A stretch of DNA of 51,896 nucleotides from Nitrososphaerales archaeon (GCA_030039795.1 JASHUU010000007.1:1-51896), one strand, 5' to 3'. Positions 4,297 through 51,728 are shown, numbered from the stretch's first letter. Numbers and translations are program-made. Notes: generated from the letters alone by a model not told the origin.

Positions 4297-5619
4297 CTAC
4301 TTTGGGCTCTCGGCCTGGGCAGGCGCAGGGTCCGCTTCCCAGGGCAGCTGGACCCTGTAGGTGTCGATCTGGAAGGAGACGTTCTTCAGCTCCTTGGGCT
4401 CGAGCTTGACGAGCTTGTACTGGACCTTGTTCCTTATCTGATCGTAGACCTGCTCCGAGATGCAGATGCCTCCCCCGGTCGCCAGCGGCTCGATCCTTGA
4501 CGCTATGTTCACCGCGTCCCCGTAGACGTCCCCGCCCTCGTGTATCACGTCGCCTACGTGTATCCCTATCTTCAGCCTGACCTTCTCGGAGTCCGGCTCG
4601 TGCAGGTCGTGGAGCGTCTTCTCCATCTCGACCGCGCACTCGGTCGCCTCCAGCGCGCTGTTGAACTCGACAAGGAATGCGTCTCCTATGGTCTTCACCT
4701 CCCGCCCGGAGTACTTCGGGAAGATCGGCCGGATCAGCTTCCTGTGCTTCTTGAGCAGCTTCATCGCCTTCGACTCGTCGGTCTGGGTCAGCGCCGTGTA
4801 GCCTACTATGTCGGTGAACATTATGGCCGCCAGCCGTCTCGTGGGCTCGCCCGACTCCTCGGGCTGCTGAGGGGCCTTCGGGGCGAGGTCCGGGACGGAC
4901 CCGATCACCCCGCCAGCGGCGAACTCGGCCAGCGCCGCGACTATGAAGAGGTAGGTCCCTGTGCCGAAACCCCAGCTGACCGTCGACGTGCCGACCGCTC
5001 CCGAGCCTCCTGCTGGGTTCGAGGAGATCGTCGTCAGGAAGGAGCTGCCCGCCGCCGAGAGCTGCTGGCCCCCGACCGCGCTCGAGATTGCCGGGACGAG
5101 GCCTGGCAGGTCTGACGCGAAGGCCAGGACCAGTACCAACGCTATGAGGAGGATGATGGCGCTATCGACATACTTCCTGCTCAGGGCGGTCCCGCGGGTC
5201 ACCGCGAGGGTGTCCAACATGAGGAGCGGGATGACTATCGCGAAGATTACCCCCAGGGGCGCGTCCACGGCCACCACGCTGCTGAGAGTAGGTGCCGCGG
5301 TCGCGTTCCCTCCTGTGAGGACGCTCACGCCGATGCCGTGGAACCCGTTGACGTAGATTAGCTGCGTCGACGCCCCCACCGCCGGCTTCGCGGTGGCCAC
5401 ATACCAAGGGAAGAAGAGCGCAACTATCGTGATGAGCATCCCGACCACGCCGACGGCGAAGCCTGCGCCGCCCCTCCCCTTCAGGAACTTCCAGAACAGC
5501 AGGCCTCCGTTCTTCCACTGCTTCCATATCTCGCGGACCTTCCAGGCCGCGAACGCCGCGAAGATGAGGAGCCATACCAAGAGGAAGTTGTCTACGAGCC
5601 AGGAGATGAAGTACTCCAA
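4297..5619 (-). CDS. membrane protein with C-terminal class III adenylate/guanylate cyclase domain
   Basis: Several hydrophobic segments, then RRLAAIMFTDIVGYTALTQ, VKTIGDAFLVEF, GDAVNIASRIEPLATGGGICIS; TTG start at 5619 inferred. Confidence 0.88.
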   Translation of the reverse strand: MEYFISWLVDNFLLVWLLIFAAFAAWKVREIWKQWKNGGLLFWKFLKGRGGAGFAVGVVGMLITIVALFFPWYVATAKPAVGASTQLIYVNGFHGIGVSVLTGGNATAAPTLSSVVAVDAPLGVIFAIVIPLLMLDTLAVTRGTALSRKYVDSAIILLIALVLVLAFASDLPGLVPAISSAVGGQQLSAAGSSFLTTISSNPAGGSGAVGTSTVSWGFGTGTYLFIVAALAEFAAGGVIGSVPDLAPKAPQQPEESGEPTRRLAAIMFTDIVGYTALTQTDESKAMKLLKKHRKLIRPIFPKYSGREVKTIGDAFLVEFNSALEATECAVEMEKTLHDLHEPDSEKVRLKIGIHVGDVIHEGGDVYGDAVNIASRIEPLATGGGICISEQVYDQIRNKVQYKLVKLEPKELKNVSFQIDTYRVQLPWEADPAPAQAESPK

Positions 5620-5768
5620 AACGGGTACTTCGACCTGCCCGCGGCCATTAGATAAGATTAGCCCGACCGGGCCATCGCAGGCCTTCGCTCCGACAATGGT
5701 TGGGAGGCGCTTCCGAGCCGACAGGCAAGACTGGAGGGGTGTCTGGTCCGCCGAGGGGCGCTCCGGGC

Positions 5769-6221
5769 TCACCAGGCCGCGTGCGACTTCACATGGACGT
5801 CGTACAGCTCTCGGTACTGGGTGACGAAGCCGCAGCTGGCGAAGGGGCACTTCAGCAGGTTCGGGGGCAGCATCTGGCCCGTGTCCTTTCTGCCCCTGGA
5901 CCGCACCAACGGGTCCGGTGTGTGGACCACGATGTCCCCTCCGTCTGCCTCGACCGAGTACAGCTGGGCCTCCTTCCGCTTCGACACGAACTGCGCGACG
6001 ATTTGTTGGACGTCGCTGACAGAGACCTTCCCTCCGAAGGTGTCCAGCACTATCTTGGCGTCCTTGATGAGGCCGATCGCCCTGCCGACCAGGCCTTCAG
6101 AGATGGCTGATGCAAGCGCAATCTGCTCGTCAACCGTCATCTCGCTGCAGTCGACTTCGACCAATCCACGCTCTCCCCTCGCCGGAGGCTTAAACGACTT
6201 TCTCGCGCCCCCCGGTCTCAC
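5769..6221 (-). CDS. C2H2-type zinc finger protein, archaeal, unknown function
   Basis: C-terminal CPFASCGFVTQYRELYDVHVKSH (C-x4-C-x12-H-x3-H); start codon uncertain. Confidence 0.6.
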   Translation of the reverse strand: MRPGGARKSFKPPARGERGLVEVDCSEMTVDEQIALASAISEGLVGRAIGLIKDAKIVLDTFGGKVSVSDVQQIVAQFVSKRKEAQLYSVEADGGDIVVHTPDPLVRSRGRKDTGQMLPPNLLKCPFASCGFVTQYRELYDVHVKSHAAW

Positions 6222-31937: not shown

Positions 31938-34430
31938 TTGCCTGAAACCGACAAGGAACTCGAGCTCGACACGCTTCCAGGCGTCGGCCCGGCTACGAAG
32001 CAGAAGCTGAAGGACGCGGGCATCGAGACGATACTGGACCTCGCGACCGCAGGGCCGATGGACATCTCCGAGGCGGTGGACATCGACGTGTCCAAGGCAG
32101 TCGAGCTGAACAACAAGGCGAGGAAGAAGCTCGTGGAAATGAACAGGCTCGAGCCCGACTTCATGAGCGCGGCCGACCTCCTCGCGAAGAGGAAGGCCAT
32201 CGAGAGGGTCTCAACAGGTTCGAAGAACCTCGACGACCTCCTCGGGGGAGGCATCGAGACATGGGCGATGACGGAATTTTTTGGCGAGTTCGGCAGCGGG
32301 AAGTGCGTCGCAGGAGACACCAAGGTCTTCTATACGAATGACGCTCAAGTCCACTTCGAGGACATCTCTGACACGTACGAAAAGTACGCCGCCATGCACG
32401 GCGAGAGAAGGTTCGAGGAAGGTTTCATCGTTCCACTGAGAGAAGTGAACGTCATAGGACTGGACGCCCTGCCAACGCCAGCTTCGTACATCTACCGCGA
32501 GAGGGTCAGGAAAATACTCGAAGTAGGTACAGAGAGAGGAAGGAAGCTGAGGCTCGCCAAGGAGCACATGGCGCTGGTTCTGGGGAGTGAGGGGCTGAAA
32601 TGGGTTCCTGCAAGGATGCTCGCGGTGGGGGACAAAGTGGCGACGCCAAAGTCGGTGTCGCTAAAGGGCACAAAAACGATCTCAGACGACGACGCGTTCT
32701 TCCTGGGATTCTTCGTAGCCGAAGGGACGAGGAACCCCCTCTCGATAACGAATGAAGACAGGCTGCTCCTGAAGTGGACGGTAGACTATGTGCGACGACG
32801 CTTCGGCTTCGAGCCGACCGTCCGGGAGTCAGACGGGCACTCCAGCGTGGTCCTCCTTAGGAACCCAGTGAAGTCACTGCTCGGACGGCTGGCAGAGTCG
32901 AACTCGTACACGAAGTCGGTTCCTGACGAAGTCCTCAACGGGGACCTGGACATAGTCAGGAACTTCCTGGCAGGCTACCTTGAAGGAGACGGCAGAGTGA
33001 AAGGCAGCGAGATTGAGGTCTCGTCCAACAGCAAACTCCTAATCGAGGGGGTGTCATACCTCTTCGCAAGGCTCGGGATAGCGACCACCTTCGGCACGAA
33101 GAAGACCAAGACGGGCCCCCACTACAGGCTGCGTGTGTCGGGGTTCGACCGCGAGAAAGTCTCACAGGTGCCGTTCAAGAGCAAGGCCGCCCCTGCTGTC
33201 AAAACACGCAACAGCAAGTTCGGCGTCCCAATAGGAGACATGCTCAGGACGACCTACAGGACGGCCGTCACGTCGAGCAGGTGGCACGTTAGGAGGGACG
33301 GCGCGCTCCGGAAGAATGGCACGCTCTACGAGGCCCTCACCAGGTCGGCGTATGGAAAGACGGCGATGAGCGACCGGCAGCTCAAAGAGCTGATTGACTT
33401 CTTCGAAGGAATCCGAGGCAAGCTAAAGGCCAACCTGGCCGACCTTGACGAGGCGGACCTATCATCTTCGGCCGGATTCAGGAGGTTCGCGAGCTCGCTG
33501 GCATTCCCGGCGAACACCATGGCCGGAGCGATGGGGCTCACCAAGAGCGGGGTAAACAACTACTTCAACAGGGGAGTTTCGGAAGGGAGGGTAGATTCGT
33601 ATAGAGTCGCAACCAGACAGGAATTGGAGAAGAGACTGAGGCTCGTGGGCCGCCAGATCGCCACCATCGAAGAGGCGATGAAGTTCAACTGGGACACCGT
33701 AGAGGACATCGAAGAAGTGCCATACGACGGCTATGTGTACGACTTCGAAGTGCCGGAAGGGCATGCCTTCGTCAGCGGGAACCTCCCCACAATCATGCAC
33801 AACAGTCAGATATGCCACACGCTATGCGCGATGGTCCAGCAGCCGAAAGGAGAGGGAGGGCTGGACGGCGGCGCGGTGTACATCGACACCGAGGGGACCT
33901 TCAGGCCGGAGAGAATAGCGGAGATCTCGGAGGCCCGCGGCTTCGACCCCGAGAAGGTGCTGTCTAGGATAACCGTAGCGAGGGCCTACAACAGCGCGCA
34001 CCAGGAGCTCATAGTGAAGGAGCTGGGCAGAGTGATCGAGCCGAACGGCGTCAAGCTCGTCATCCTCGACAGCGCCGTGGCGCACTACAGGGCGGAGTTC
34101 CTTGGGAGGGGGACCCTGTCGGAGAGGCAGCAGCGCCTCAACAGGTTCATGCACCAGCTCCTCAGGACCGCGGAGATCTACAACATAGCCGTGGTGCTCA
34201 CCAACCAGGTCCAGGCCGCCCCGGACACCTTCTTCGGCGACCCGACCAAGCCGACGGGCGGGCACGTCGTGGCACACACCAGCACCTACAGGATATACCT
34301 GCGAAAGGCGGCGAAGAACCGCATTGCTAGGATGGTCGACAGCCCCTACCACCCCGAGCGAGACGCGGTCTTCATGCTCGACGAAAAGGGGGTCGACGAC
34401 CCTTCGGAAGAGAGCACCCGCAGGAAGTAG
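31938..34430 (+). CDS. radA: DNA repair/recombination protein RadA with in-frame intein
   Basis: LDTLPGVGPATKQKLKDAGIETILDLATAGP; FGEFGSGK // SQICHTLCAMVQ; IDTEGTFRPERIAEISEARG; LTNQVQAAPDTFFGDPTKPTGGHVVAHTSTYRIYLRK. Confidence 0.97.
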   Translation: MPETDKELELDTLPGVGPATKQKLKDAGIETILDLATAGPMDISEAVDIDVSKAVELNNKARKKLVEMNRLEPDFMSAADLLAKRKAIERVSTGSKNLDDLLGGGIETWAMTEFFGEFGSGKCVAGDTKVFYTNDAQVHFEDISDTYEKYAAMHGERRFEEGFIVPLREVNVIGLDALPTPASYIYRERVRKILEVGTERGRKLRLAKEHMALVLGSEGLKWVPARMLAVGDKVATPKSVSLKGTKTISDDDAFFLGFFVAEGTRNPLSITNEDRLLLKWTVDYVRRRFGFEPTVRESDGHSSVVLLRNPVKSLLGRLAESNSYTKSVPDEVLNGDLDIVRNFLAGYLEGDGRVKGSEIEVSSNSKLLIEGVSYLFARLGIATTFGTKKTKTGPHYRLRVSGFDREKVSQVPFKSKAAPAVKTRNSKFGVPIGDMLRTTYRTAVTSSRWHVRRDGALRKNGTLYEALTRSAYGKTAMSDRQLKELIDFFEGIRGKLKANLADLDEADLSSSAGFRRFASSLAFPANTMAGAMGLTKSGVNNYFNRGVSEGRVDSYRVATRQELEKRLRLVGRQIATIEEAMKFNWDTVEDIEEVPYDGYVYDFEVPEGHAFVSGNLPTIMHNSQICHTLCAMVQQPKGEGGLDGGAVYIDTEGTFRPERIAEISEARGFDPEKVLSRITVARAYNSAHQELIVKELGRVIEPNGVKLVILDSAVAHYRAEFLGRGTLSERQQRLNRFMHQLLRTAEIYNIAVVLTNQVQAAPDTFFGDPTKPTGGHVVAHTSTYRIYLRKAAKNRIARMVDSPYHPERDAVFMLDEKGVDDPSEESTRRK
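32304..33803 (+). mobile_element. RadA intein (500 aa) with LAGLIDADG homing endonuclease domain, inserted in Walker A
   Basis: Starts CVAGDTKVF, ends FVSGNLPTIMHN before Ser+1; endonuclease motifs FFLGFFVAEGT and FLAGYLEGDGR. Confidence 0.95.
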
Positions 34431-42555: not shown

Positions 42556-44238
42556 ATGAAAGGCTTGGAACCGCGCGCCTGGGACAAGTCTTGGCCTGTC
42601 GGCCTCCCCAAGGAGGCGTCCGTCGGCCCCGCCCCGCTCTACTCGATACTCACGGAGTCCGCGAAGAAGTTCGGAGCGAGGCCCTGCCTGCGGTACCAGG
42701 GGCGGACCCTCACCTACTCCGACGTCGACGACCTGTCCTCGAGGGTGGCGTCCGGCCTCCTCTCGCTAGGGCTCTCGGACGGCGACCGGGTGGCCATACT
42801 CTCGCCCAACACGCCTCAGTTCGTGGCCAGCTACTTCGGCATCCTCAAGGCGGGAGGCGTCGTAGTCCCATGCAGCCCGCTCTACAAGGAGAGGGAGCTG
42901 GAGTCGCAGCTCCGCGACTCGGGGGCGTCCATGATAGTGGCTGCCAACGACGTCGTCGGGGGCAACGACCTCTACGCGAGCCTGCAAGGGTGCAGAGGCA
43001 GGCTCGAGCTCAGGCACGTCATAACCGCGAGCGTGACGGACTACCTCCCCTCGGCCAAGCGAGCTCTCGCGGGCCTGGCCAAGGTGAAGAACGTAAAGAG
43101 GGCTGACACCGTCGAGTTCAAGGAGCTGGTGAAGGGCAGCCGCCCTCTCGAGTCGCCCGTCCGGGTGGACCCTGAGCGGGACCCTGCCGTCCTGCAGTAC
43201 ACCGGGGGGACGACGGGGGTCTCCAAAGGGGCCGTCCTGACGCATTACAACCTGCTGGCCGCCACCTCGATAGCCCAACTCCCGATCGGCCTAGGCGAGG
43301 CGGACGTCACGATGGCGGTCCTCCCCCTGTTCCACATATTCGGCATGATCGCCTCGATGAACCTCCCGATGCTCACGGGCGGGCGGGCGGTGCTCCTTCC
43401 GAGGTTCGACGTCAGGGAGGTCATGCGCGCGATAGGGCGGGAGGGCGCGACCTTCTTCCCCGGCGTGCCTACGATGTACATCGCGATCAACAACCACCCG
43501 GACGCAGCGAAGTTCAGGCTCAAGAGCGTCAGGGTCGCGTTCTCAGGTGGAGCGCCCCTCCCTGCGGCCGTGAGGCAGAGGTTCAACGAGCTGACGGGCG
43601 GGAACCTGGTCGAGGGCTACGGGCTGACTGAGACCTCCGCGGTCGGCTGCACGAACCCCATCAGGGGAGGGAAGTCGAGGGACGGGTCCGTCGGCATGCC
43701 CTTCCCTTCCACGGACGCGAGGATAGTGTCTCTCGACGACCCCGGGCACGAGCTCGGGCCGGAGGAGGTGGGCGAGCTGGCCCTCAGCGGACCACAAGTG
43801 ATGAAAGAGTACTGGCGGAACGAAGGCGAGACGAGGGCGGTGCTGTCCGGCGGCTGGCTCCTGACCGGGGACGTCGCGAAGATGGACGCGGAAGGCTATT
43901 TCCACATAGTCGACAGGAAGAAGGACATGGTAAGCGTAGGAGGGCTCAAGGTCTACCCCCGCGAGGTGGAGGAGGTGCTCTTCGAGCACCCGGCGGTGAA
44001 GGAGGCCGCGGTCGTCGGAGTCCCCGACCCCTACATGGGGGAGTCGGTCAAGGCGTTCGTAGTCCTGAAGGATCCCTCGAGGCAGGCCACGGCGGAGGCC
44101 GACATAGTCTCATTCTGCGCGGAGAGGCTCGCCAAGTACAAGGTCCCGCACTCGGTCGCGTTCGTCCCCGAGCTCCCCAAGACGCTCGTGGGGAAGGTGC
44201 TGAGGAGGAGGCTCAGGGAAGGTCCGGCTACCGGCTGA
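42556..44238 (+). CDS. AMP-forming acyl-CoA synthetase (long-chain fatty acid-CoA ligase type)
   Basis: LQYTGGTTGVSKGAVLTHYNLLA, GYGLTETSAVGCTNP, GWLLTGDVAKMDAEGYFHIVDRKKDMVSVGGLKVYPREVEEVL. Confidence 0.95.
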   Translation: MKGLEPRAWDKSWPVGLPKEASVGPAPLYSILTESAKKFGARPCLRYQGRTLTYSDVDDLSSRVASGLLSLGLSDGDRVAILSPNTPQFVASYFGILKAGGVVVPCSPLYKERELESQLRDSGASMIVAANDVVGGNDLYASLQGCRGRLELRHVITASVTDYLPSAKRALAGLAKVKNVKRADTVEFKELVKGSRPLESPVRVDPERDPAVLQYTGGTTGVSKGAVLTHYNLLAATSIAQLPIGLGEADVTMAVLPLFHIFGMIASMNLPMLTGGRAVLLPRFDVREVMRAIGREGATFFPGVPTMYIAINNHPDAAKFRLKSVRVAFSGGAPLPAAVRQRFNELTGGNLVEGYGLTETSAVGCTNPIRGGKSRDGSVGMPFPSTDARIVSLDDPGHELGPEEVGELALSGPQVMKEYWRNEGETRAVLSGGWLLTGDVAKMDAEGYFHIVDRKKDMVSVGGLKVYPREVEEVLFEHPAVKEAAVVGVPDPYMGESVKAFVVLKDPSRQATAEADIVSFCAERLAKYKVPHSVAFVPELPKTLVGKVLRRRLREGPATG

Positions 44239-45406
44239 CGACCATCGCCACGGCGTTCCCGCCCCCGAGGCAGAGGGTGGCGAGCCCTGTCTTCTTGCCC
44301 GTGCTCCTCATGGAGTGCACGAGGGTGGTCAGCACCCTGGCCCCGCTGCATCCTATGGGATGCCCGAGCGCCACGGCCCCTCCTCTGACGTTGAACCTGT
44401 CTTCGGGCACCCGCAGCTCTCTGCGGACGGCTATCGACGCCGTCGAGTAAGCCTCGTTGTGCTCAAAGAGGTCCACGTCCTCGACCGTCATCCTCGCCCG
44501 CTTCAGGAGGGCCCGCGTGGTGGGGATCGGCGCCTCCATCACGCGCGCCGGCTCGAGCCCGCCCGTCCCGTAGGCCACTATCCTCGCTATCGGCTTCGCG
44601 CCGAGCCTGTCTGCCGCCTCCTCTGACGCCACCACCAGCGCGGCGGCGCCGTCGCTGAGCTGCGACGAGTTCCCGGCCGTGAGGACGCCGCCGGGCTTGA
44701 ACACTGGCTTCAGCTTTGACAGCTTCTCGACGGTCGTGTCCCCCCTGATGCATTCGTCCTTCCGGAAGTCGGTCACCGTCCCGTCCTCGTGCTCTATCTG
44801 CACGTCGACTATCTCGTCTTCGAAGAGGCCCCCGTCGGACGCCTTAGCCGCGCGCGTGTGGCTCGAGTACGCGTACTCGTCAGCCTCCCTCCTGGTGATC
44901 CCGTACTTCTTCGCCACGAGCTCGCCCGTGATGCCCATGTGGTAGTCGTGGTAGGCGTCCCACAGGCCGTCGCTGGTCATCGCGTCCTGGAAGAGGACGT
45001 CCCCGAACTTTATCCCCCACCTCGCCTTCTTGACCAGGTAGGGTGCGTTGCTCATGTTCTCCATCCCGCCCGCGACTATCACGTCGGCGTCGCGCGCCTT
45101 GATGGCCTGCGCGGCGAACATTACCGCCTTGAGGCCGGAGCCGCAGACCTTGTTGACCGTGACCGAGCCCACAGAGAACGGGACCTTCGCATGTATGGCG
45201 GCCTGCCTCGCAGGGTTCTGGCCCAGCCCGGCGGAGACGACGTTCCCGAGGATCACTTCGTCGACCTCCGAGGTCGGGACGCGCGCCCTTCCCAGCGCCT
45301 CCTTGACGACCACCGCGCCGAGCTTCGGCGCGCTCACGCCGACGAGGCCCTTCCCGAACTTCCCTATCGCCGTCCTGCAGGCTGAGAGTAGGACGGCCTC
45401 GGTCAA
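44228..45406 (-). CDS. acetyl-CoA C-acetyltransferase (canonical thiolase)
   Basis: TVNKVCGSGLKAVMFAAQAI (catalytic Cys), NVRGGAVALGHPIGCSGARVL, TLCLGGGNAVAMVV. Confidence 0.95.
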   Translation of the reverse strand: MTEAVLLSACRTAIGKFGKGLVGVSAPKLGAVVVKEALGRARVPTSEVDEVILGNVVSAGLGQNPARQAAIHAKVPFSVGSVTVNKVCGSGLKAVMFAAQAIKARDADVIVAGGMENMSNAPYLVKKARWGIKFGDVLFQDAMTSDGLWDAYHDYHMGITGELVAKKYGITRREADEYAYSSHTRAAKASDGGLFEDEIVDVQIEHEDGTVTDFRKDECIRGDTTVEKLSKLKPVFKPGGVLTAGNSSQLSDGAAALVVASEEAADRLGAKPIARIVAYGTGGLEPARVMEAPIPTTRALLKRARMTVEDVDLFEHNEAYSTASIAVRRELRVPEDRFNVRGGAVALGHPIGCSGARVLTTLVHSMRSTGKKTGLATLCLGGGNAVAMVVSR

Positions 45407-45499
45407 TGCGCTTCGCGTCGTCAAACGACGATAATAAAACCTCCTCAAGAAGGCGGCCCCTCACGCCTAAATAGAGTCGGGGGTCGGCTTGCGCACGCG

Positions 45500-46417
45500 T
45501 TGAAGTCCCTCTCCGCGATATGGATGGACGGCAGGTTCGTTCCCTGGGACGAGGCCAAGATCCACGTGCTCACCCATGGCCTGCACTACGGGTACGCCAT
45601 CTTCGAGGGGATAAGGTGCTATTCGACTGACGCAGGCCCGGCGATATTCAGGCTGGACGAGCACATAGAGAGGTTCCTGAACAGCGCCAAGATCTACAGG
45701 ATGGACCTGGGGCACTCAGCAAAGGACCTGTCGAAGGCCTGCGTCGAGGTCGTCAGGAGGAACAAGGTGACCGAGTGCTACATCAGGCCCATAGCCTACA
45801 GCGGGTACGGCGAGATGGGCCTCAACCCGCTCACCAGCAAGATCAACGTGGCCATCGCCGTCTGGGAGTGGGGCCCGTATCTCGGGCGGGAGGCTCAGAC
45901 CGAGGGAGTCCGCGCGATGGTCTCCAGCTGGGCCAGGATAAACGCCCGCGCGATGCCGATCCAGGCCAAGTGCTCCGCCAACTACGCGAACAGCGCGCTC
46001 GCCAAGATAGAGGCGCTCGACGCCGGGTACGACGAGGCGATAATGCTCAACCACGACGGCATGGTCGCCGAGGGGCCCGGAGAGAACATCTTCAGAGTGA
46101 AGGACGGCATCCTCAGCACGCCCCCGGCCAGCTCCGGCATACTCAGGGGCATCACGAGGGACACCGTCATCGAGTTCGCGCACGAGCTGGGGCTCACGTT
46201 CTACAGGAACGACGCCACGAAGGAGGAGCTCTACACCTCAGACGAGCTCTTCTTCAGCGGCACGGCAGTGGGGATCGCCAAGATACGCGAGGTGGACGGC
46301 AGGAAGATAGGCTACGACGGCTTCCCTATCACGGACAAGATCCAGAAGATGTACTCCGACGCGGTCCACGGCAGGTCCAAGAAGCACGCGAAGTGGCTGA
46401 CCCCGGTAAGGCCGTAG
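45500..46417 (+). CDS. ilvE: branched-chain amino acid aminotransferase
   Basis: WMDGRFVPWDEAKIHVLTHGLHYGYAIFEGIRCY, NSALAKIEALDAGYDEAIMLNHDGMVAEGPGENIFRVKDG. Confidence 0.96.
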   Translation: MKSLSAIWMDGRFVPWDEAKIHVLTHGLHYGYAIFEGIRCYSTDAGPAIFRLDEHIERFLNSAKIYRMDLGHSAKDLSKACVEVVRRNKVTECYIRPIAYSGYGEMGLNPLTSKINVAIAVWEWGPYLGREAQTEGVRAMVSSWARINARAMPIQAKCSANYANSALAKIEALDAGYDEAIMLNHDGMVAEGPGENIFRVKDGILSTPPASSGILRGITRDTVIEFAHELGLTFYRNDATKEELYTSDELFFSGTAVGIAKIREVDGRKIGYDGFPITDKIQKMYSDAVHGRSKKHAKWLTPVRP

Positions 46418-46882
46418 CTATCTTACGACGAACTCTTCGATGTCGAGGACCGTCCCTGTCCTCTTCCCCTTCTCCCTGAACCTCGGAGCCACGGCCGAGC
46501 CCACCCCGAGCCCCTTGCCCGAGGCGTAGTGGATGAGCCCCCCCGTGGCCCCCTTGAACGTGACGAAGGCGAATGTGCGCGGCCGGGCCAGCGCCTTCCC
46601 CTCGAAGTCGACGTAGCTCTCGGCCAGGGCGGCCACGGTGGCTGCCGGGCCCACCTCCTCGTACTTCCTGATCTCGACGAAGCAGTCCGTGCAGTACATC
46701 TTCGGCGGCACGTACCTCTTCCCGCACTCCTCGCACGCCGAGGCGAGTATCCTCCCGTCCTTGAACCCCCTCAGGAACCTCTCTCCGGCTACGCCCGCGG
46801 TGTATTCGTAGTGGAACGGTATCTGGTCGGTCCAGCTCCTCAGGCTCTCCACGCTCGTGAGCCTCTCCAGGGGTGCCATCAT
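46418..46882 (-). CDS. DUF35 Zn-ribbon/OB-fold protein
   Basis: RILASACEECGKRYVPPKMYCTDCF and OB region ALARPRTFAFVTFKGATGGLIHY. Confidence 0.9.
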   Translation of the reverse strand: MMAPLERLTSVESLRSWTDQIPFHYEYTAGVAGERFLRGFKDGRILASACEECGKRYVPPKMYCTDCFVEIRKYEEVGPAATVAALAESYVDFEGKALARPRTFAFVTFKGATGGLIHYASGKGLGVGSAVAPRFREKGKRTGTVLDIEEFVVR

Positions 46883-47391
46883 TTCCTCCTCGGCCGAAAG
46901 TACGCGATGTCCGTTATCGCGCCCTTCCTCTCCGCCTTCGGCCGCCAGACCGCCTCGACCTTCATCCCCACCTCCACCTCGGAGGGGTCCACCTCCCCCA
47001 TCAGGTGCAGTATCCCCATCTCGGGCGAGGCCCCGTCTATCTCTATGACCGATACCACGATGGGCTTCTCGCGCCTGCTTGCGTCGTTGTTCACGTAGCT
47101 TATCGAGAACGTGTTGACCTTCCCGGTGTCCTTGACCTTCACCCACTCGTCCGTGGGGCGGAAGTCCTCCTCGCAGTACATGCGAGGGGGGATCATCACC
47201 CTGCCGCACTCGTTGCACTTCCTCGCCCAGAGCTCGCCCTCCTTCAGGCCGTCGAGGAACCTGCTCACCGCGACCCCCGAGGTCCAAGAGTAGCGGAGAG
47301 TCGTCCTGTAGCCGGTCGAGAGGACGCTCCCGGCCTTGAGAGCGTCGAGGTCGACCTCGCTCCCGGGGTACTCCCGAATCTTCGAGCTCAT
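46879..47391 (-). CDS. DUF35 Zn-ribbon/OB-fold protein
   Basis: ELWARKCNECGRVMIPPRMYCEEDF, PIVVSVIEIDGASPEMGILHLMGEVDPSEVEVGMKVEAVWRPKAERKGAITDIAYFRP. Confidence 0.9.
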   Translation of the reverse strand: MSSKIREYPGSEVDLDALKAGSVLSTGYRTTLRYSWTSGVAVSRFLDGLKEGELWARKCNECGRVMIPPRMYCEEDFRPTDEWVKVKDTGKVNTFSISYVNNDASRREKPIVVSVIEIDGASPEMGILHLMGEVDPSEVEVGMKVEAVWRPKAERKGAITDIAYFRPRRK

Positions 47392-49370
47392 CCGCCCCTG
47401 CCCTCCTCGGATGCGGATTTCAAACTTTCCCAGCCCCCCTTCGAAAGCCTGACGTAGAAGTCTACCGACGAAGGGTCGGAGAGGGAGTCCCTGTTCAGGA
47501 CCTTCTCCGGGTCGGCCCCCATCATGACCCGCTTGATCGGGACCTCGAGCTTCTTCCCGCTGACCGTCCTCGGGACCGAGGGGACCTGCAGGAGGACGTC
47601 TGGGACGTGCCTGGGCGAGAGGTCCGACTTCAGCCTGCCGTTGATCTTGCCCCTTAGCCCGTCGTCGAGCGTCTTCCCTGGCGCGAGCGCGACGAACAGC
47701 GCGAGCCTGCTCTCTTCTCCCGGAGAGCCGAGGTCCACCGCGAGGGAGTCGGCGACCTCCTCGATCGACTCGACGGCCCTGTAGATCTCGCTGGTCCCCA
47801 TCCTCACGCCGTGGCGCTTCAGAGTCGCGTCCGACCTCCCGTAGATCCTGCACGTCCCTCTCTCCGTGACCTCGATCCAGTCGCCGTGCCTCCAGACCCC
47901 GGGGTAGGTCGAGAAGTAGCTCTCCGTGTACCTTCTCCCGTCCGCGTCGCCCCAGAGGAACAGTGGCATGCTGGGCATGGGCTCTGTGATCACCAGCTCG
48001 CCCGTCTCCCCGACGACAGGCCTCCCGTCGGAGTCGTAGGCTTCGACCTTGGCGCCGAGGCACCGGCACTGGATCTCTCCCGCGTTGACCGGGAGGGTGG
48101 GGGAGCCTCCCACGAAGGCGGTGCAGACGTCAGTCCCCCCGCTTATCGAAGCGAGCCAGACGTCAGGCTTCGCCTTGGAGTAGACCCACTCGAAGCACTC
48201 GGCCGAGAGAGGGGAGCCCGTGGAGCCGATGCCTCTCAGCTTGGGCAGCCTGTGGGTCGAGGCGGGCTCCGTCCCTGCCTTCAGACACGAGGAGAGGAAG
48301 GCGGCGCCCGTCCCGAGGAAGGTGACTTCTGCCTTCTCGGCGAGCCCCCAGAGCGCGTCCAGGTCCGGGTATCCGGGGCTCCCGCTGTAGAGGACGAGCG
48401 TGGCTCCCAGGAGGAGGCCTCCCACCAGGTAGTTCCACATCATCCAGCCTGTGGTCGTGAACCAGAAGAACCTGTCATTCGGCCTGATGTCGTTGTGGAA
48501 CGACAGCTCCTTCAGCAGCTCGACCGTTATCCCACCGTTGCCGTGGACTATGGGCTTGGGCGGGCCTGTCGTCCCGGAAGAGTAGAGTATCCAGAGCGGA
48601 TGGTCGAAGGGGAGGGGCTCGTACTCGGGGCTCGCCTTCCCGGCCGTGGCGTCCTCCCACGAGACCGCCCCGTACCCCGGGCTCTCCTCCTCGCCCGCCC
48701 TGACCTCTATGACGCTCTTCACCGTGGGCAGGGCCGCTGCCATCTTCCTCACCTCCTCGGTCCTCGAGTGCCACTGGCCGTTGTACGCGTACCCGTCGGA
48801 CGCGAGCAGGACCTTGGGCCCGACCTGCCCGAACCTGTCGACCACCGCCGGGACGCCGAAGTCCGGCGAGCAGCTCGTCCAGACCGCCCCGATGCTGGCG
48901 CAAGCCAGGACCCCGACGACCGCCTCGGCGCCGTTGTGTATGAACGCCGCCACCCTGTCCCCCTGCTCGACGCCCATCGCCCTGAGGCTGGAGGCGAGCG
49001 CCGCGGTCTTCTTCTCCAGCGCGTCCCACGTCATGGTCTTCGGCCGCGACCCCTCGGCCCTGGCCTCGAGGGCGACCCCGTCCTGCTTCGCGCTGAAGAC
49101 CCGCTCGGCGAAGTTGACGTCCGCCCCGGAGAACCACTTCGCGCCGGGCATCTTCCTTTCCTCCAGGACGATGTAGTCGGCGTCGGAGACGTCGAAGTAC
49201 TTCCAGACTGTCGCCCAGAATGCCTCCAGGTCGTCCACGGACCACTTCCACAGGTCCTGGTACCCGTCGAAGGCGATTCCCCTCTTCTCGAGCCACTTCA
49301 GGTAGGCGGCGATGTTCGTCTTCCTCGCCGACTTCGGGTCGGGCTTCCAGAGGAGCCTGCCAGGTTTCAA
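47388..49370 (-). CDS. acetoacetyl-CoA synthetase-like AMP-forming ligase
   Basis: HPLWILYSSGTTGPPKPIVHGNGGITVELLKE, WFTTTGWMMWNYLVGGLLLGATLVLYSGSPGYPD, SGGTDVCTAFVGGSPTLPV. Confidence 0.92.
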   Translation of the reverse strand: MKPGRLLWKPDPKSARKTNIAAYLKWLEKRGIAFDGYQDLWKWSVDDLEAFWATVWKYFDVSDADYIVLEERKMPGAKWFSGADVNFAERVFSAKQDGVALEARAEGSRPKTMTWDALEKKTAALASSLRAMGVEQGDRVAAFIHNGAEAVVGVLACASIGAVWTSCSPDFGVPAVVDRFGQVGPKVLLASDGYAYNGQWHSRTEEVRKMAAALPTVKSVIEVRAGEEESPGYGAVSWEDATAGKASPEYEPLPFDHPLWILYSSGTTGPPKPIVHGNGGITVELLKELSFHNDIRPNDRFFWFTTTGWMMWNYLVGGLLLGATLVLYSGSPGYPDLDALWGLAEKAEVTFLGTGAAFLSSCLKAGTEPASTHRLPKLRGIGSTGSPLSAECFEWVYSKAKPDVWLASISGGTDVCTAFVGGSPTLPVNAGEIQCRCLGAKVEAYDSDGRPVVGETGELVITEPMPSMPLFLWGDADGRRYTESYFSTYPGVWRHGDWIEVTERGTCRIYGRSDATLKRHGVRMGTSEIYRAVESIEEVADSLAVDLGSPGEESRLALFVALAPGKTLDDGLRGKINGRLKSDLSPRHVPDVLLQVPSVPRTVSGKKLEVPIKRVMMGADPEKVLNRDSLSDPSSVDFYVRLSKGGWESLKSASEEGRGG

Positions 49371-49438
49371 TGACTTGCGCCGCTCCGGGCGCGCCGGTGG
49401 TTATAAGGCGAGCAAGGCCGATGGCGGGCGCGACCAGG

Positions 49439-50596
49439 TCAGCGCTTCATCGTTATGACGGTCCCCACCTGTAAGAGGTCCCCCCAGGCCTGAGCCAGCC
49501 CGCGGTCGACTTCCTTCTTCACCTGCCTCTTCCCGGCCTCTCCCTTCAGCTGCCAGTACAGCTCGCAGACCTTCATCACACCCGCGGCTGCGATCGGGTT
49601 GCCCACGCCGAGCAGCCCTCCTGACGGGTTGATGGGGAGGTCCCCGTCTCTCTGGGTGACCCCCTCTCTGGTGAGCTTCGGCGCCTCGCCCTTGTCCGCG
49701 AGGAGGACGCCCTCCATGTGGTGGAGCTCCTTGTAGTCGAACGGGTCGTAGACCTCGGCGAAGTCGATCTGCTTCTTCGGGTTGTCTATCTTCGCCATCT
49801 TGTACGCCATCCTGGCCGCCTCCTCCACGTACCTCGGGTAGTAGAGGTCGCGGTTGGTCCAGTACTGCGTGTCCACGTTCCACCCCACGCCGTCGATCCA
49901 GACGGGGTCGTCGGTGTACTTCCTCGCCACGTCCTCCGACGCGAGCATCACCGCCGCCGCGCCGTCGGAGGTCGGAGACACGTCGAGCCGCTTGACTGGG
50001 AGGCAGATGGGCTCGCTCTTCATCACGTCGTCTACCGTGATCCTCGCAGGGAGCTGGGCGCAGGGGTGGTCCAGGGCGTTGCCCTTGTTCTTGACAGAGA
50101 CGAGCGCGATGTCCTCCTCCCTCACCTTGTGGACGTGCATGTATCTGCGCATCTCCAGCGAGAATATCCAGAGGAGGGTGACGCCTAGGGGCCTCTCTGT
50201 CGTGTGGTCGAAGATGCTCCAGAATGCGTACTGGGGGTGCGGATGCAGCGGGGACATCTTCTCCTCGCCCACCACCAGGCACGTGTCGAACTGGCCCGAG
50301 GCCACGTGCCACCATCCGGCGACAGGCACGAAGACGCCTGTGCCGCCGCCCACGTACACCCTGCTGTATGGCCTGTTGGTCCCGCCCGCCCCGTCCATCA
50401 GGTACTCGCCTTTCATGTGGACGCCGTCAAAGGCGTCGGGAGCGGTCCCCAGGACCACCGACTCCACGTCCTTGATCTCCATGCCGGCGGAGTCCATCGC
50501 CATCCTGCTGGCTTCGAAGGACATCTCCCGGCCGGTCTCCAGCATCCTCCGCCTGAACTTCGTCATGCCCGCGCCGATCACGGCTACTCTCTTCAC
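49439..50596 (-). CDS. non-canonical thiolase-fold protein (SCP-x/Ltp-like)
   Basis: VAVIGAGMTKFRRR, SPTSDGAAAVMLASED, NPSGGLLGVGNPIAAAGVMKVCELYWQLKGEAG. Confidence 0.88.
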   Translation of the reverse strand: MKRVAVIGAGMTKFRRRMLETGREMSFEASRMAMDSAGMEIKDVESVVLGTAPDAFDGVHMKGEYLMDGAGGTNRPYSRVYVGGGTGVFVPVAGWWHVASGQFDTCLVVGEEKMSPLHPHPQYAFWSIFDHTTERPLGVTLLWIFSLEMRRYMHVHKVREEDIALVSVKNKGNALDHPCAQLPARITVDDVMKSEPICLPVKRLDVSPTSDGAAAVMLASEDVARKYTDDPVWIDGVGWNVDTQYWTNRDLYYPRYVEEAARMAYKMAKIDNPKKQIDFAEVYDPFDYKELHHMEGVLLADKGEAPKLTREGVTQRDGDLPINPSGGLLGVGNPIAAAGVMKVCELYWQLKGEAGKRQVKKEVDRGLAQAWGDLLQVGTVITMKR

Positions 50597-50600
50597 GCCT

Positions 50601-51728
50601 TCATCTCCCTCCTGACAGCGCTATTGCCGCTCCGGTAGCCGTCGGGTTCCCCCTCCACGACAGGGCGAGCGCCGTCTCCGGCCTCCTCACCTGGTTGCCT
50701 CCCGCCTCGCCTCTCAGCTGGAGGACGCACTCGAGGACCTTGTGCGAGCCCGTGGCCTCGATGAGGTAGCCGGTCCCAAGAGAACCGCCGCTCGGGTTGA
50801 CCCTCCCTTCCTCAACCATCTCGACTCCCGCCGACCTGCCCACCCCGATGGAGGCGAGGTGCTGGAGGAGCTTGTAGGAATAGGTGTCATCCAACTCAAG
50901 GACGTCGAAGGCGCGCGCGCCCTTCGCCCCGGACTGCTTCGCGACCGACTTGAACGAGTCGGCTGCGTACGCCGGCTCCTCCACGTCGCCCCCTTCGAAC
51001 CAGGGGGTGCTGGAGCGCCAGGTCAGCCCGTCGACGGACACGCCGTCCTTCTTGTTCTTCTTCGCCCACCTCTCGGACGCCAGTACGACCACTATTCCCG
51101 CCTCCGCGAACTCGGCCTTGTCGTTCTTCATCAGGGGGGCCGCTATCGGGCCGGTCCCGCCGATCTCCTTGAGGCTGAGCCTCCCGCCGTAGCTCGAGCG
51201 GGGGTTGCGGAGGGCCCTGGCCTTCTCCGCCTTCACGGCGCAGCTCAGGTCGTCCCTGGTCACGCCGGACCTCTTCATGAAGGCGCTCATCTCGAGCCCT
51301 GCAAGGACGTCGTAGTTGGCGCCGACCGGCCTGTGGTAAACCGGGTCGAGCGCGAGGTTCTCGACGGCCGTCTTGTCGAGGACGTCGGCCACCTTGCTGT
51401 GCGCCTCCACCGACACCACGTCGGCGACGCCCGAGCGTATGTGCATCACCGCATGACCCATCCCGATTATCCCGTCGCCGGGCACGGTGCAGACCGGGCG
51501 CCTGGCGCCCCCGACCTGGTCCGGGACCATCTCGTCTGTGATGCTCCACCCTTCCCAGAAGTCCTCAGTGCAACAGATGAACGAACCTACGTCCTTCCTC
51601 GGGTCGACCCCTGCGTCGGCGTATGCCTTCGAGGCCGCGAGGTACATGAGCTCCCTGGTCGAGACATCGGTGATGGAGGGCCTGAAGCCCTCGTAGCCGA
51701 CGCCTACTATACAGACGCCGTCAGGCAC
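50601..51728 (-). CDS. non-canonical thiolase-fold protein (SCP-x/Ltp-like)
   Basis: VCIVGVGYEGFRPSITDVSTRELMYLAASKAYADAGV, VNPSGGSLGTGYLIEATGSHKVLECVLQLRGEAGGNQV. Confidence 0.87.
   Translation of the reverse strand: MPDGVCIVGVGYEGFRPSITDVSTRELMYLAASKAYADAGVDPRKDVGSFICCTEDFWEGWSITDEMVPDQVGGARRPVCTVPGDGIIGMGHAVMHIRSGVADVVSVEAHSKVADVLDKTAVENLALDPVYHRPVGANYDVLAGLEMSAFMKRSGVTRDDLSCAVKAEKARALRNPRSSYGGRLSLKEIGGTGPIAAPLMKNDKAEFAEAGIVVVLASERWAKKNKKDGVSVDGLTWRSSTPWFEGGDVEEPAYAADSFKSVAKQSGAKGARAFDVLELDDTYSYKLLQHLASIGVGRSAGVEMVEEGRVNPSGGSLGTGYLIEATGSHKVLECVLQLRGEAGGNQVRRPETALALSWRGNPTATGAAIALSGGR

Follow-up and report, generated by a model that had tools for sequence, protein, structure and literature searches.

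A stretch of 51,896 nt from a Nitrososphaerales archaeon of soil or groundwater type (GCA_030039795.1, JASHUU010000007.1:1-51896; the whole stretch is hereafter called the window) carries an operon for two thiolase-fold proteins, T1 and T2, an acetoacetyl-coenzyme A (CoA) synthetase (AACS) and two DUF35 proteins, DUF35a and DUF35b. Both T1 and T2 lack the catalytic residues of thiolases, and T2 carries an invariant tyrosine-type active site in their place. From the genes, their motifs and conservation, synteny, predicted folds and co-occurrence, we infer a complex, its retro-aldol chemistry, its substrate and its direction of reaction. The probability that the T2 complex is an acyl-CoA C-C lyase (retro-aldolase) is put at about 0.45.

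Active sites of T2 and T1

To compare the two proteins, 72 T1 and 77 T2 sequences were aligned jointly with 21 further thiolase-fold sequences encoded on the same contigs. None of the 77 T2 sequences has the nucleophilic Cys of thiolases, the His/Cys of the HDCF motif or the His of the GHP motif. In the T2 of the window, the nucleophile segment reads VYVGGGTGV, the HDCF site YDPF and the GHP site GNP. The invariant or near-invariant segments of T2 in the alignment are GG(G/A)TGV, YDPFxYKELHHxEG and PSGGLLGVGNPIAAAG, and the third conserved segment, in the former GHP motif, reads GNPIAAAG and holds N333. A profile built from 54 aligned T2 sequences contains no invariant Cys, and Y283, D284, P285, F286, Y288, K289, E290, L291, H292, H293, E295 and N333 are invariant in it. 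The relatives are 69-94% identical to the T2 of the window, which indicates little variation. Invariance in 77 homologues excludes a frameshift, a sequencing error, chance or a local pseudogene. HMMER alignments to solved SCP2-type thiolases pair Y283 with the HDCF His.

In the T1 of the window, the corresponding sites read VPGDG (nucleophile segment), DDTY (HDCF) and GTGYLIEATG (GHP). T1 sequences have no Cys at the nucleophile place, and their HDCF place is variable (DD, HD, SE and TE forms). Because T1 varies freely at sites that are rigid in T2, it is probably a partner subunit; judged from these motifs, T1 looks like a degenerate, non-catalytic partner and T2 like the holder of one rigid new active site. 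Of the 21 other sequences, most have Cys, HDCF and GHP and are ordinary thiolases; the remainder are T1 genes missed by automatic sorting. The Cys-bearing SCP2-type thiolases on the same contigs retain all three sites. An earlier reading of the window from its sequence alone (the sequence-only reading) had claimed that both proteins lack the thiolase Cys and His, which the T2 alignment and the T1 motifs bear out; its account left out that T1 and T2 are unequal, and that the T2 family is already in NCBIfam and widespread in archaea.

Both families are indeed catalogued in NCBIfam, as PRK06065 (NF004721) and PRK06066 (NF004722), under the name 'thiolase domain-containing protein' and with no assigned function. 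T2 passes the cut-off of PRK06065 (680 bits versus 455), and the best match of T1 is PRK06066, at 380 bits and under the cut-off of 516; both proteins match Pfam thiolase families, including the Thiolase_C_1 domain. Three findings are new as far as our literature search shows: T2 has an invariant Tyr-type active site, T1 and T2 appear to differ in role, and the linkage to AACS recurs. The search, whose reach included few subscription papers, found no functional study of the archaeal T1-T2-DUF35 module.

Relationship to archaeal thiolases and steroid aldolases

The closest solved relatives of T2 are archaeal thiolases. The AlphaFold model of T2 (pLDDT 86.5) has its best template modeling (TM) score, 0.92, with 6et9, the acetoacetyl-CoA thiolase of the Methanothermococcus complex with 3-hydroxy-3-methylglutaryl-CoA (HMG-CoA) synthase (HMGCS; 6esq/6et9), followed by the Pyrococcus thiolase PFC_04095 (7yvy; 0.87), Sal (0.85) and Ltp2 (0.81-0.83). 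The best PDB match of the T1 model (pLDDT 91.4) is likewise 6et9, with a TM score of 0.90. When 23 PDB sequences were ranked by the T2 profile, the Pyrococcus thiolase scored 207 bits, the thiolase of the HMGCS complex, which has a DUF35 partner, 190 bits, Sal 118 bits and Ltp2 (6ok1) 103 bits, the last being 17th. The two archaeal thiolases keep the His of HD(C/A)F and GHxxGATG, in contrast to T2, which has YDPF and GNPIAAAG and no invariant Cys. Because its sequence and fold are nearer to archaeal acetoacetyl-CoA thiolases, T2 was not filed as a member of Ltp2. In an IQ-TREE phylogeny, which contained neither Ltp2 nor Sal, a strongly supported branch separates each of three groups from the rest (T1, 100/99; T2, 100/99; Cys thiolases, 100/100). 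A plasmid-encoded 'lipid-transfer protein' considered as a proxy for Ltp2/Sal has both Cys and HDCF and is in fact an ordinary thiolase of the SCP2 type.

The likeness to Ltp2 and Sal lies in the active site. Ltp2-ChsH2(DUF35) (6ok1) and Sal-Shy(DUF35) (9myr) also consist of a thiolase fold without the thiolase Cys and a DUF35 partner of the zf-ChsH2/OB type. The motif Tyr serves as the catalytic base of both Ltp2 (Y294DHF) and Sal (Y302DCY), and the thiolase Cys is replaced by Gly in Sal (PMC12329534). T2 also has Tyr at the HDCF His and Gly at the nucleophile Cys, and both YDPF and GG(G/A)TG are invariant. Moreover, the base Tyr and the second site are 50 residues apart in all three proteins (Ltp2 294/344, Sal 302/352 and T2 283/333), N333 having been placed at the second site from this spacing and from the GHP alignment. 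The second site of Sal is Gln352. Unlike T1-T2, Ltp2 and Sal have no second thiolase-fold subunit described, and no steroid genes were seen near the operon, unlike the setting of Ltp2/Sal. The Ltp2-DUF35 likeness claimed by the sequence-only reading therefore stands as regards the Tyr at the catalytic position, but not as regards closeness; the resemblance appears to concern mechanism and does not imply family membership.

Among the DUF35 proteins, Asp takes the place of the fourth zinc-ribbon Cys in the DUF35a of the window and in four further DUF35a proteins (L058, L076, L081 and L123), and this Cys is kept in 118/127 fetched proteins. A C3H1 variant of the zinc ribbon is known in Shy (PMC12329534). 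The solved structure closest to DUF35b is SSO2064, a Sulfolobus DUF35 protein (3irb, 86 bits) proposed to be an acyl-CoA binder (PMC2954200).

Distribution of the module

T1 relatives are present in 82 of 300 sampled Thermoproteota genomes, and at the 30 best T1 loci read, T1 adjoins a T2 gene, and a DUF35 gene is often visible nearby. A scan of the contigs of GTDB genomes detected T2 relatives on at least 507 of them. The 80 fetched for comparison include Nitrososphaerales, Gagatemarchaeum, Bathyarchaeota, Marsarchaeota, Thorarchaeota, Hermodarchaeota, a Thermoplasmata-type metagenome-assembled genome (MAG) and a few bacterial-labelled MAGs. The usual layout is T1-T2-DUF35-DUF35, and the synteny in related MAGs that the sequence-only reading proposed to check recurs in Thermoproteota, Bathyarchaeia, Asgard archaea and other groups. 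The same layout was also seen in bacterial-labelled contigs (L055, L065, L106 and L111), including Armatimonadetes and Anaerolineales MAGs, which represent either gene transfer or misbinned archaeal contigs.

The neighbors of the modules are IlvE, acyl-CoA dehydrogenase and electron transfer flavoprotein (ETF). In the Sulfolobales-type (a label assigned by inference) and related families, the module often has as its neighbors an acyl-CoA dehydrogenase gene and one for a ligase of the acetate-CoA-ligase type. In several Bathyarchaeia (L075, L078, L082, L093, L095, L099 and L100), it is followed by the large and small subunits of methylmalonyl-CoA mutase, MeaB and a probable cobalamin adenosyltransferase, and a divergent pair of DUF35 and Cys-thiolase genes often flanks it. 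The nearest named relatives of the window point to a Nitrososphaerales-type archaeon. Those Gagatemarchaeaceae that have been described are predicted to use organic carbon aerobically and to have genes for branched-chain amino acid degradation (PMC10640624).

Linkage to acetoacetyl-CoA synthetase

AACS is rare, being present in 23 of the 300 genomes. A T1/T2-type pair occurs in 21 of these 23 genomes and in 40 of the 277 others (Fisher p = 2e-14, the genomes being related and hence non-independent). AACS is physically linked to the module in the clade of the window (12 loci) and in a separate T2 clade (f17/f32), which are different parts of the T2 tree; among the fetched T2 contigs, T2 has AACS next to it in just 12, all from near relatives of the window. 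The order in f17/f32 is AACS, acyl-CoA dehydrogenase, T1, T2, DUF35a and DUF35b, with some variation and with divergent AACS in some cases, and genes for 2-oxoacid dehydrogenase E1 subunits lie nearby in several genomes. The link to ketone or acetoacetate metabolism suspected in the sequence-only reading is thus real and recurrent as regards AACS. The T1 branches leading to the two AACS-linked clades (the window T1 and L152-L160) are long (0.68 and 0.87), and T1 may have changed when AACS joined the module.

A third case is a paralogous Cys-less pair in genome G262, whose T2-like member has TTGGTTG, YDAF and SSNPVGVTG. A MaoC hydratase is encoded just upstream of the pair, and DUF35, acyl-CoA dehydrogenase, AACS and HyuB/HyuA/acetone-carboxylase-gamma (PF08882, 129 bits) downstream. 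Read from its genes, this order would describe a route from acyl-CoA through acetone and acetoacetate to acetoacetyl-CoA. Strong PF08882 matches were found only in G262, where the gene is linked to the pair, and in G176, with no pair within the 15 kb read. The PF02538 matches of most genomes are, by their scores, ordinary hydantoinase-B proteins. The G262 locus (L161, G262:C13, 341-16490; Thermoproteota) is a compact cluster that also has two acyl-CoA ligases and acetone/acetophenone-carboxylase-like genes, and its HyuA-like gene is split in two frames (348 and 87 aa).

A proposed retro-aldol lyase

A tertiary beta-hydroxyacyl-CoA, which arises by hydration of a beta-methyl-branched enoyl-CoA, cannot be oxidized and thiolysed, and retro-aldol cleavage of it gives a ketone. 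That a tertiary beta-hydroxyl cannot become the beta-keto group needed for thiolysis would explain why a thiolase was rebuilt as a lyase. We propose that T1, T2, DUF35a and DUF35b form one archaeal acyl-CoA C-C lyase complex in which T2 would be catalytic. T2 would have kept the CoA-binding thiolase fold, with Tyr283 of YDPF replacing the thiolase Cys/His and deprotonating the beta-hydroxyl. Its substrate would be a beta-hydroxyacyl-CoA, probably with a beta-methyl branch, and the products of retro-aldol cleavage would be acetyl-CoA and a ketone. T1 would be the degenerate thiolase-fold partner, and the DUF35 proteins would be scaffold or substrate-channel subunits, as in other thiolase/DUF35 complexes. 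In the lineage of the window, the product would be acetoacetate or be converted to it, AACS would turn it into acetoacetyl-CoA, and the nearby canonical thiolase would cleave the latter into two acetyl-CoA. The likely setting is the degradation of leucine or another branched-chain acid, and the neighboring IlvE fits leucine. Candidate substrates are HMG-CoA, from which acetoacetate would be released directly, and 3-hydroxyisovaleryl-CoA, from which it would be reached via acetone.

The enzymes of the classical leucine route were looked for by family searches in the genome of the window and in relatives. Canonical HMG-CoA lyase (NF004283) was over the cut-off in none of 33 genomes tested, that of the window included, and the weak matches were LeuA-type where inspected. 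Methylcrotonyl-CoA carboxylase (MCC) requires a biotin carboxyltransferase. In a family search, this domain (PF01039) was absent from the genome of the window and from 8 of 12 relatives, as well as from 99%-complete genomes of f25 and f13, and the PF01039 genes inspected in G304 and G311 lie beside an apparent methylmalonyl-CoA mutase and not in an MCC-like cluster. The classical pathway through MCC and HMG-CoA lyase was rejected, as no HMG-CoA lyase passed the cut-off in the 33 genomes and PF01039 is lacking in the genome of the window and in many AACS-bearing genomes. Since the genome of the window (1.29 Mb in 97 contigs) is 79% complete, single absences in it are weak, and it is their agreement with the relatives that carries weight. 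The genome encodes a 2-oxoacid dehydrogenase complex on contig C26.

In favor of the lyase reading stand the invariant Tyr-type site of T2, the contrast between a rigid T2 and a variable T1, the recurrent AACS linkage, the gene order in G262, the neighboring IlvE, acyl-CoA dehydrogenase, ETF and 2-oxoacid dehydrogenase E1 genes, and the lack of a canonical HMG-CoA lyase over the cut-off in the 33 genomes. Several observations weigh against it. Each candidate substrate has a gap in the genome: no leucine-derived source of HMG-CoA is visible, PF01039 being absent or, in the relatives inspected, beside an apparent methylmalonyl-CoA mutase, and the PF08882 acetone carboxylase was absent from the genome of the window and its 12 relatives in a family search. 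Most archaeal T1-T2 modules have no AACS alongside, and acetoacetate is not general to the T1-T2 family, because the Sulfolobales-type modules carry acetate-CoA-ligase-type ligases and those of Bathyarchaeia methylmalonyl-CoA mutase. T2 is also nearer to archaeal thiolases than to Ltp2/Sal in both sequence and fold. Furthermore, the second acid of Ltp2, Tyr344, is Asn333 in T2, and the residue two past the base, Cys in Sal and His in Ltp2, is Pro285, so the proton donors of Ltp2/Sal have no counterpart in T2; the Tyr of T2 may be convergent with that of Ltp2/Sal and have a different use. Because both candidate substrates have gaps, the probability of the C-C lyase reading is set no higher than given above, and a full leucine-type pathway is considered unlikely. 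Equally doubtful, taken as a whole, is the wider scheme in which the T1-T2-DUF35 lyase opens a leucine-type route without methylcrotonyl-CoA carboxylase or HMG-CoA lyase, feeding acetoacetate or acetone to AACS, in which the same core with other ligases serves other branched acids across archaea, and in which the Tyr lyase chemistry was gained separately from that of the bacterial steroid aldolases.

Databases annotate the relatives of T2 as thiolase-like despite the loss of the thiolase catalytic residues. Should T2 prove to be an acyl-CoA aldolase, many reconstructions of archaeal beta-oxidation and amino-acid degradation would be wrong at this step, and the handling of branched-chain acids by archaea without methylcrotonyl-CoA carboxylase and HMG-CoA lyase would be open to direct testing. 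It would then also seem that the change from thiolase to tyrosine-based aldolase took place at least twice.

Alternative explanations

T2 might instead be a synthetic enzyme or a non-classical acyltransferase; acetoacetyl-CoA from AACS, or a different acyl-CoA, would then be condensed with a further molecule to build an archaeal metabolite, in the manner of PhlABC and other thiolase/DUF35 complexes. PhlABC (5m3k) has a similar layout, with an active and an inactive thiolase-fold subunit plus DUF35 (PMC2954200), comparable to the conserved T2 and the degenerate T1; AACS yields an activated substrate, and Claisen enzymes are among the closest predicted folds. However, PhlC is described as the active thiolase of its complex, the C88S structure of a PhlC relative (9skm) marks Cys88 as the likely nucleophile site, and a Cys such as a PhlC-type catalytic subunit should have is missing from T2. 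BbsAB, the benzoylsuccinyl-CoA thiolase (7pxp), is another heteromeric thiolase-fold/DUF35 complex, but in alignments the His site and GHP are present in BbsB and not in T2; both PhlABC and BbsAB perform other chemistry and are more distant from T2 than the archaeal thiolases are. The neighbors of T2 are, moreover, catabolic (acyl-CoA dehydrogenase, ETF and 2-oxoacid dehydrogenase), and we judge a synthetic role unlikely, though not negligible.

The loss of the nucleophile and of the acid/base residues from both proteins would also be expected if T1 and T2 were non-enzymatic pseudo-thiolases with a regulatory or scaffolding role, whose task is to bind CoA esters or to tether AACS, acyl-CoA dehydrogenase and DUF35 to one another, and some members of the DUF35 family have been assigned non-catalytic roles (PMC6996347). 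Nevertheless, the invariant polar set in the active site of T2 (YDPFxYKELHHxE and GNPIAAAG) exceeds what a scaffold would need, and only T1 resembles a pseudo-enzyme, which makes this explanation rather improbable for the pair.

An aldolase acting on an alpha-methyl-branched substrate derived from valine or isoleucine, with propionyl-CoA and an aldehyde as products and not a leucine-type ketone, would suit the Bathyarchaeia modules that adjoin methylmalonyl-CoA mutase, MeaB and the predicted cobalamin adenosyltransferase. The corresponding enzymes of steroid degradation remove a propionyl residue (PMC12502768). AACS would have no place in such a pathway, yet it is linked to two T2 clades and to the G262 paralogue, and we regard this substrate class as quite unlikely. 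A divergent archaeal mevalonate complex (acetoacetyl-CoA thiolase/DUF35/HMGCS), which the DUF35 proteins and the predicted best fold match of T1 and T2 to 6et9 might suggest and which the sequence-only reading had already disfavored, is very improbable and was ruled out, since the operon contains no HMGCS, the catalytic Cys is missing from T2, and a full archaeal HMGCS (C41:4734-5741, 460 bits) adjoins another thiolase elsewhere in the genome (C41:4734-7000).

Operon structure and other features of the window

The five genes of the operon are transcribed in the order T1, T2, AACS, DUF35a and DUF35b (Table 1). T1 and T2 are separated by 4 nt and T2 and AACS by 68 nt, and 4-nt overlaps occur between AACS and DUF35a and between DUF35a and DUF35b. 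The open reading frames thus agree with the five tightly packed minus-strand genes and the overlapping DUF35 pair described in the sequence-only reading, as well as with its statement that the nearby thiolase keeps CGSG and GHPIG. The window is the entire contig C85, and 168 nt lie between the start of T1 and the end of that contig; the operon may therefore lack its 5' end or genes upstream. The AACS gene encodes an acetoacetate-CoA ligase as judged by its TIGR01217 score (797 bits versus a cut-off of 520.9; PRK03584, 930 bits) and its SGTTGPPK and SGKK motifs.

Table 1. The operon and its neighboring genes in the window.
Gene	Position	Strand	Features
T1	50601-51728	-	Thiolase fold without Cys/HDCF/GHP; PRK06066-like; probable non-catalytic partner of T2
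T2	49439-50596	-	Thiolase fold; NCBIfam PRK06065; probable catalytic subunit of a putative C-C lyase
AACS, acetoacetyl-CoA synthetase (AMP-forming)	47388-49370	-	TIGR01217, PRK03584; ligase motifs YSSGTTGPPK, TVSGKKLE
DUF35a	46879-47391	-	zf-ChsH2 + OB fold (OB_ChsH2_C); zinc ribbon CxxC-x10-CxxD
DUF35b	46418-46882	-	zf-ChsH2 only; full CxxC-x10-CxxC
IlvE, branched-chain amino acid aminotransferase	45500-46417	+	Divergent neighbor, retained next to the operon in relatives
Canonical acetyl-CoA C-acetyltransferase	44228-45448	-	Keeps CGSG and GHPIG
Fatty-acid-type acyl-CoA ligase	42556-44238	+	Conserved neighbor

Two further genes of the window deserve mention. At 31938-34430 (+), a RadA/Rad51 recombinase (Rad51, 270 bits) is split by an intein that carries a LAGLIDADG homing-endonuclease domain (Intein_splicing, LAGLIDADG_3). 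At 4297-5850 (-), a 517-aa protein of this archaeon has the catalytic domain of adenylate/guanylate cyclases (PF00211, 81 bits).

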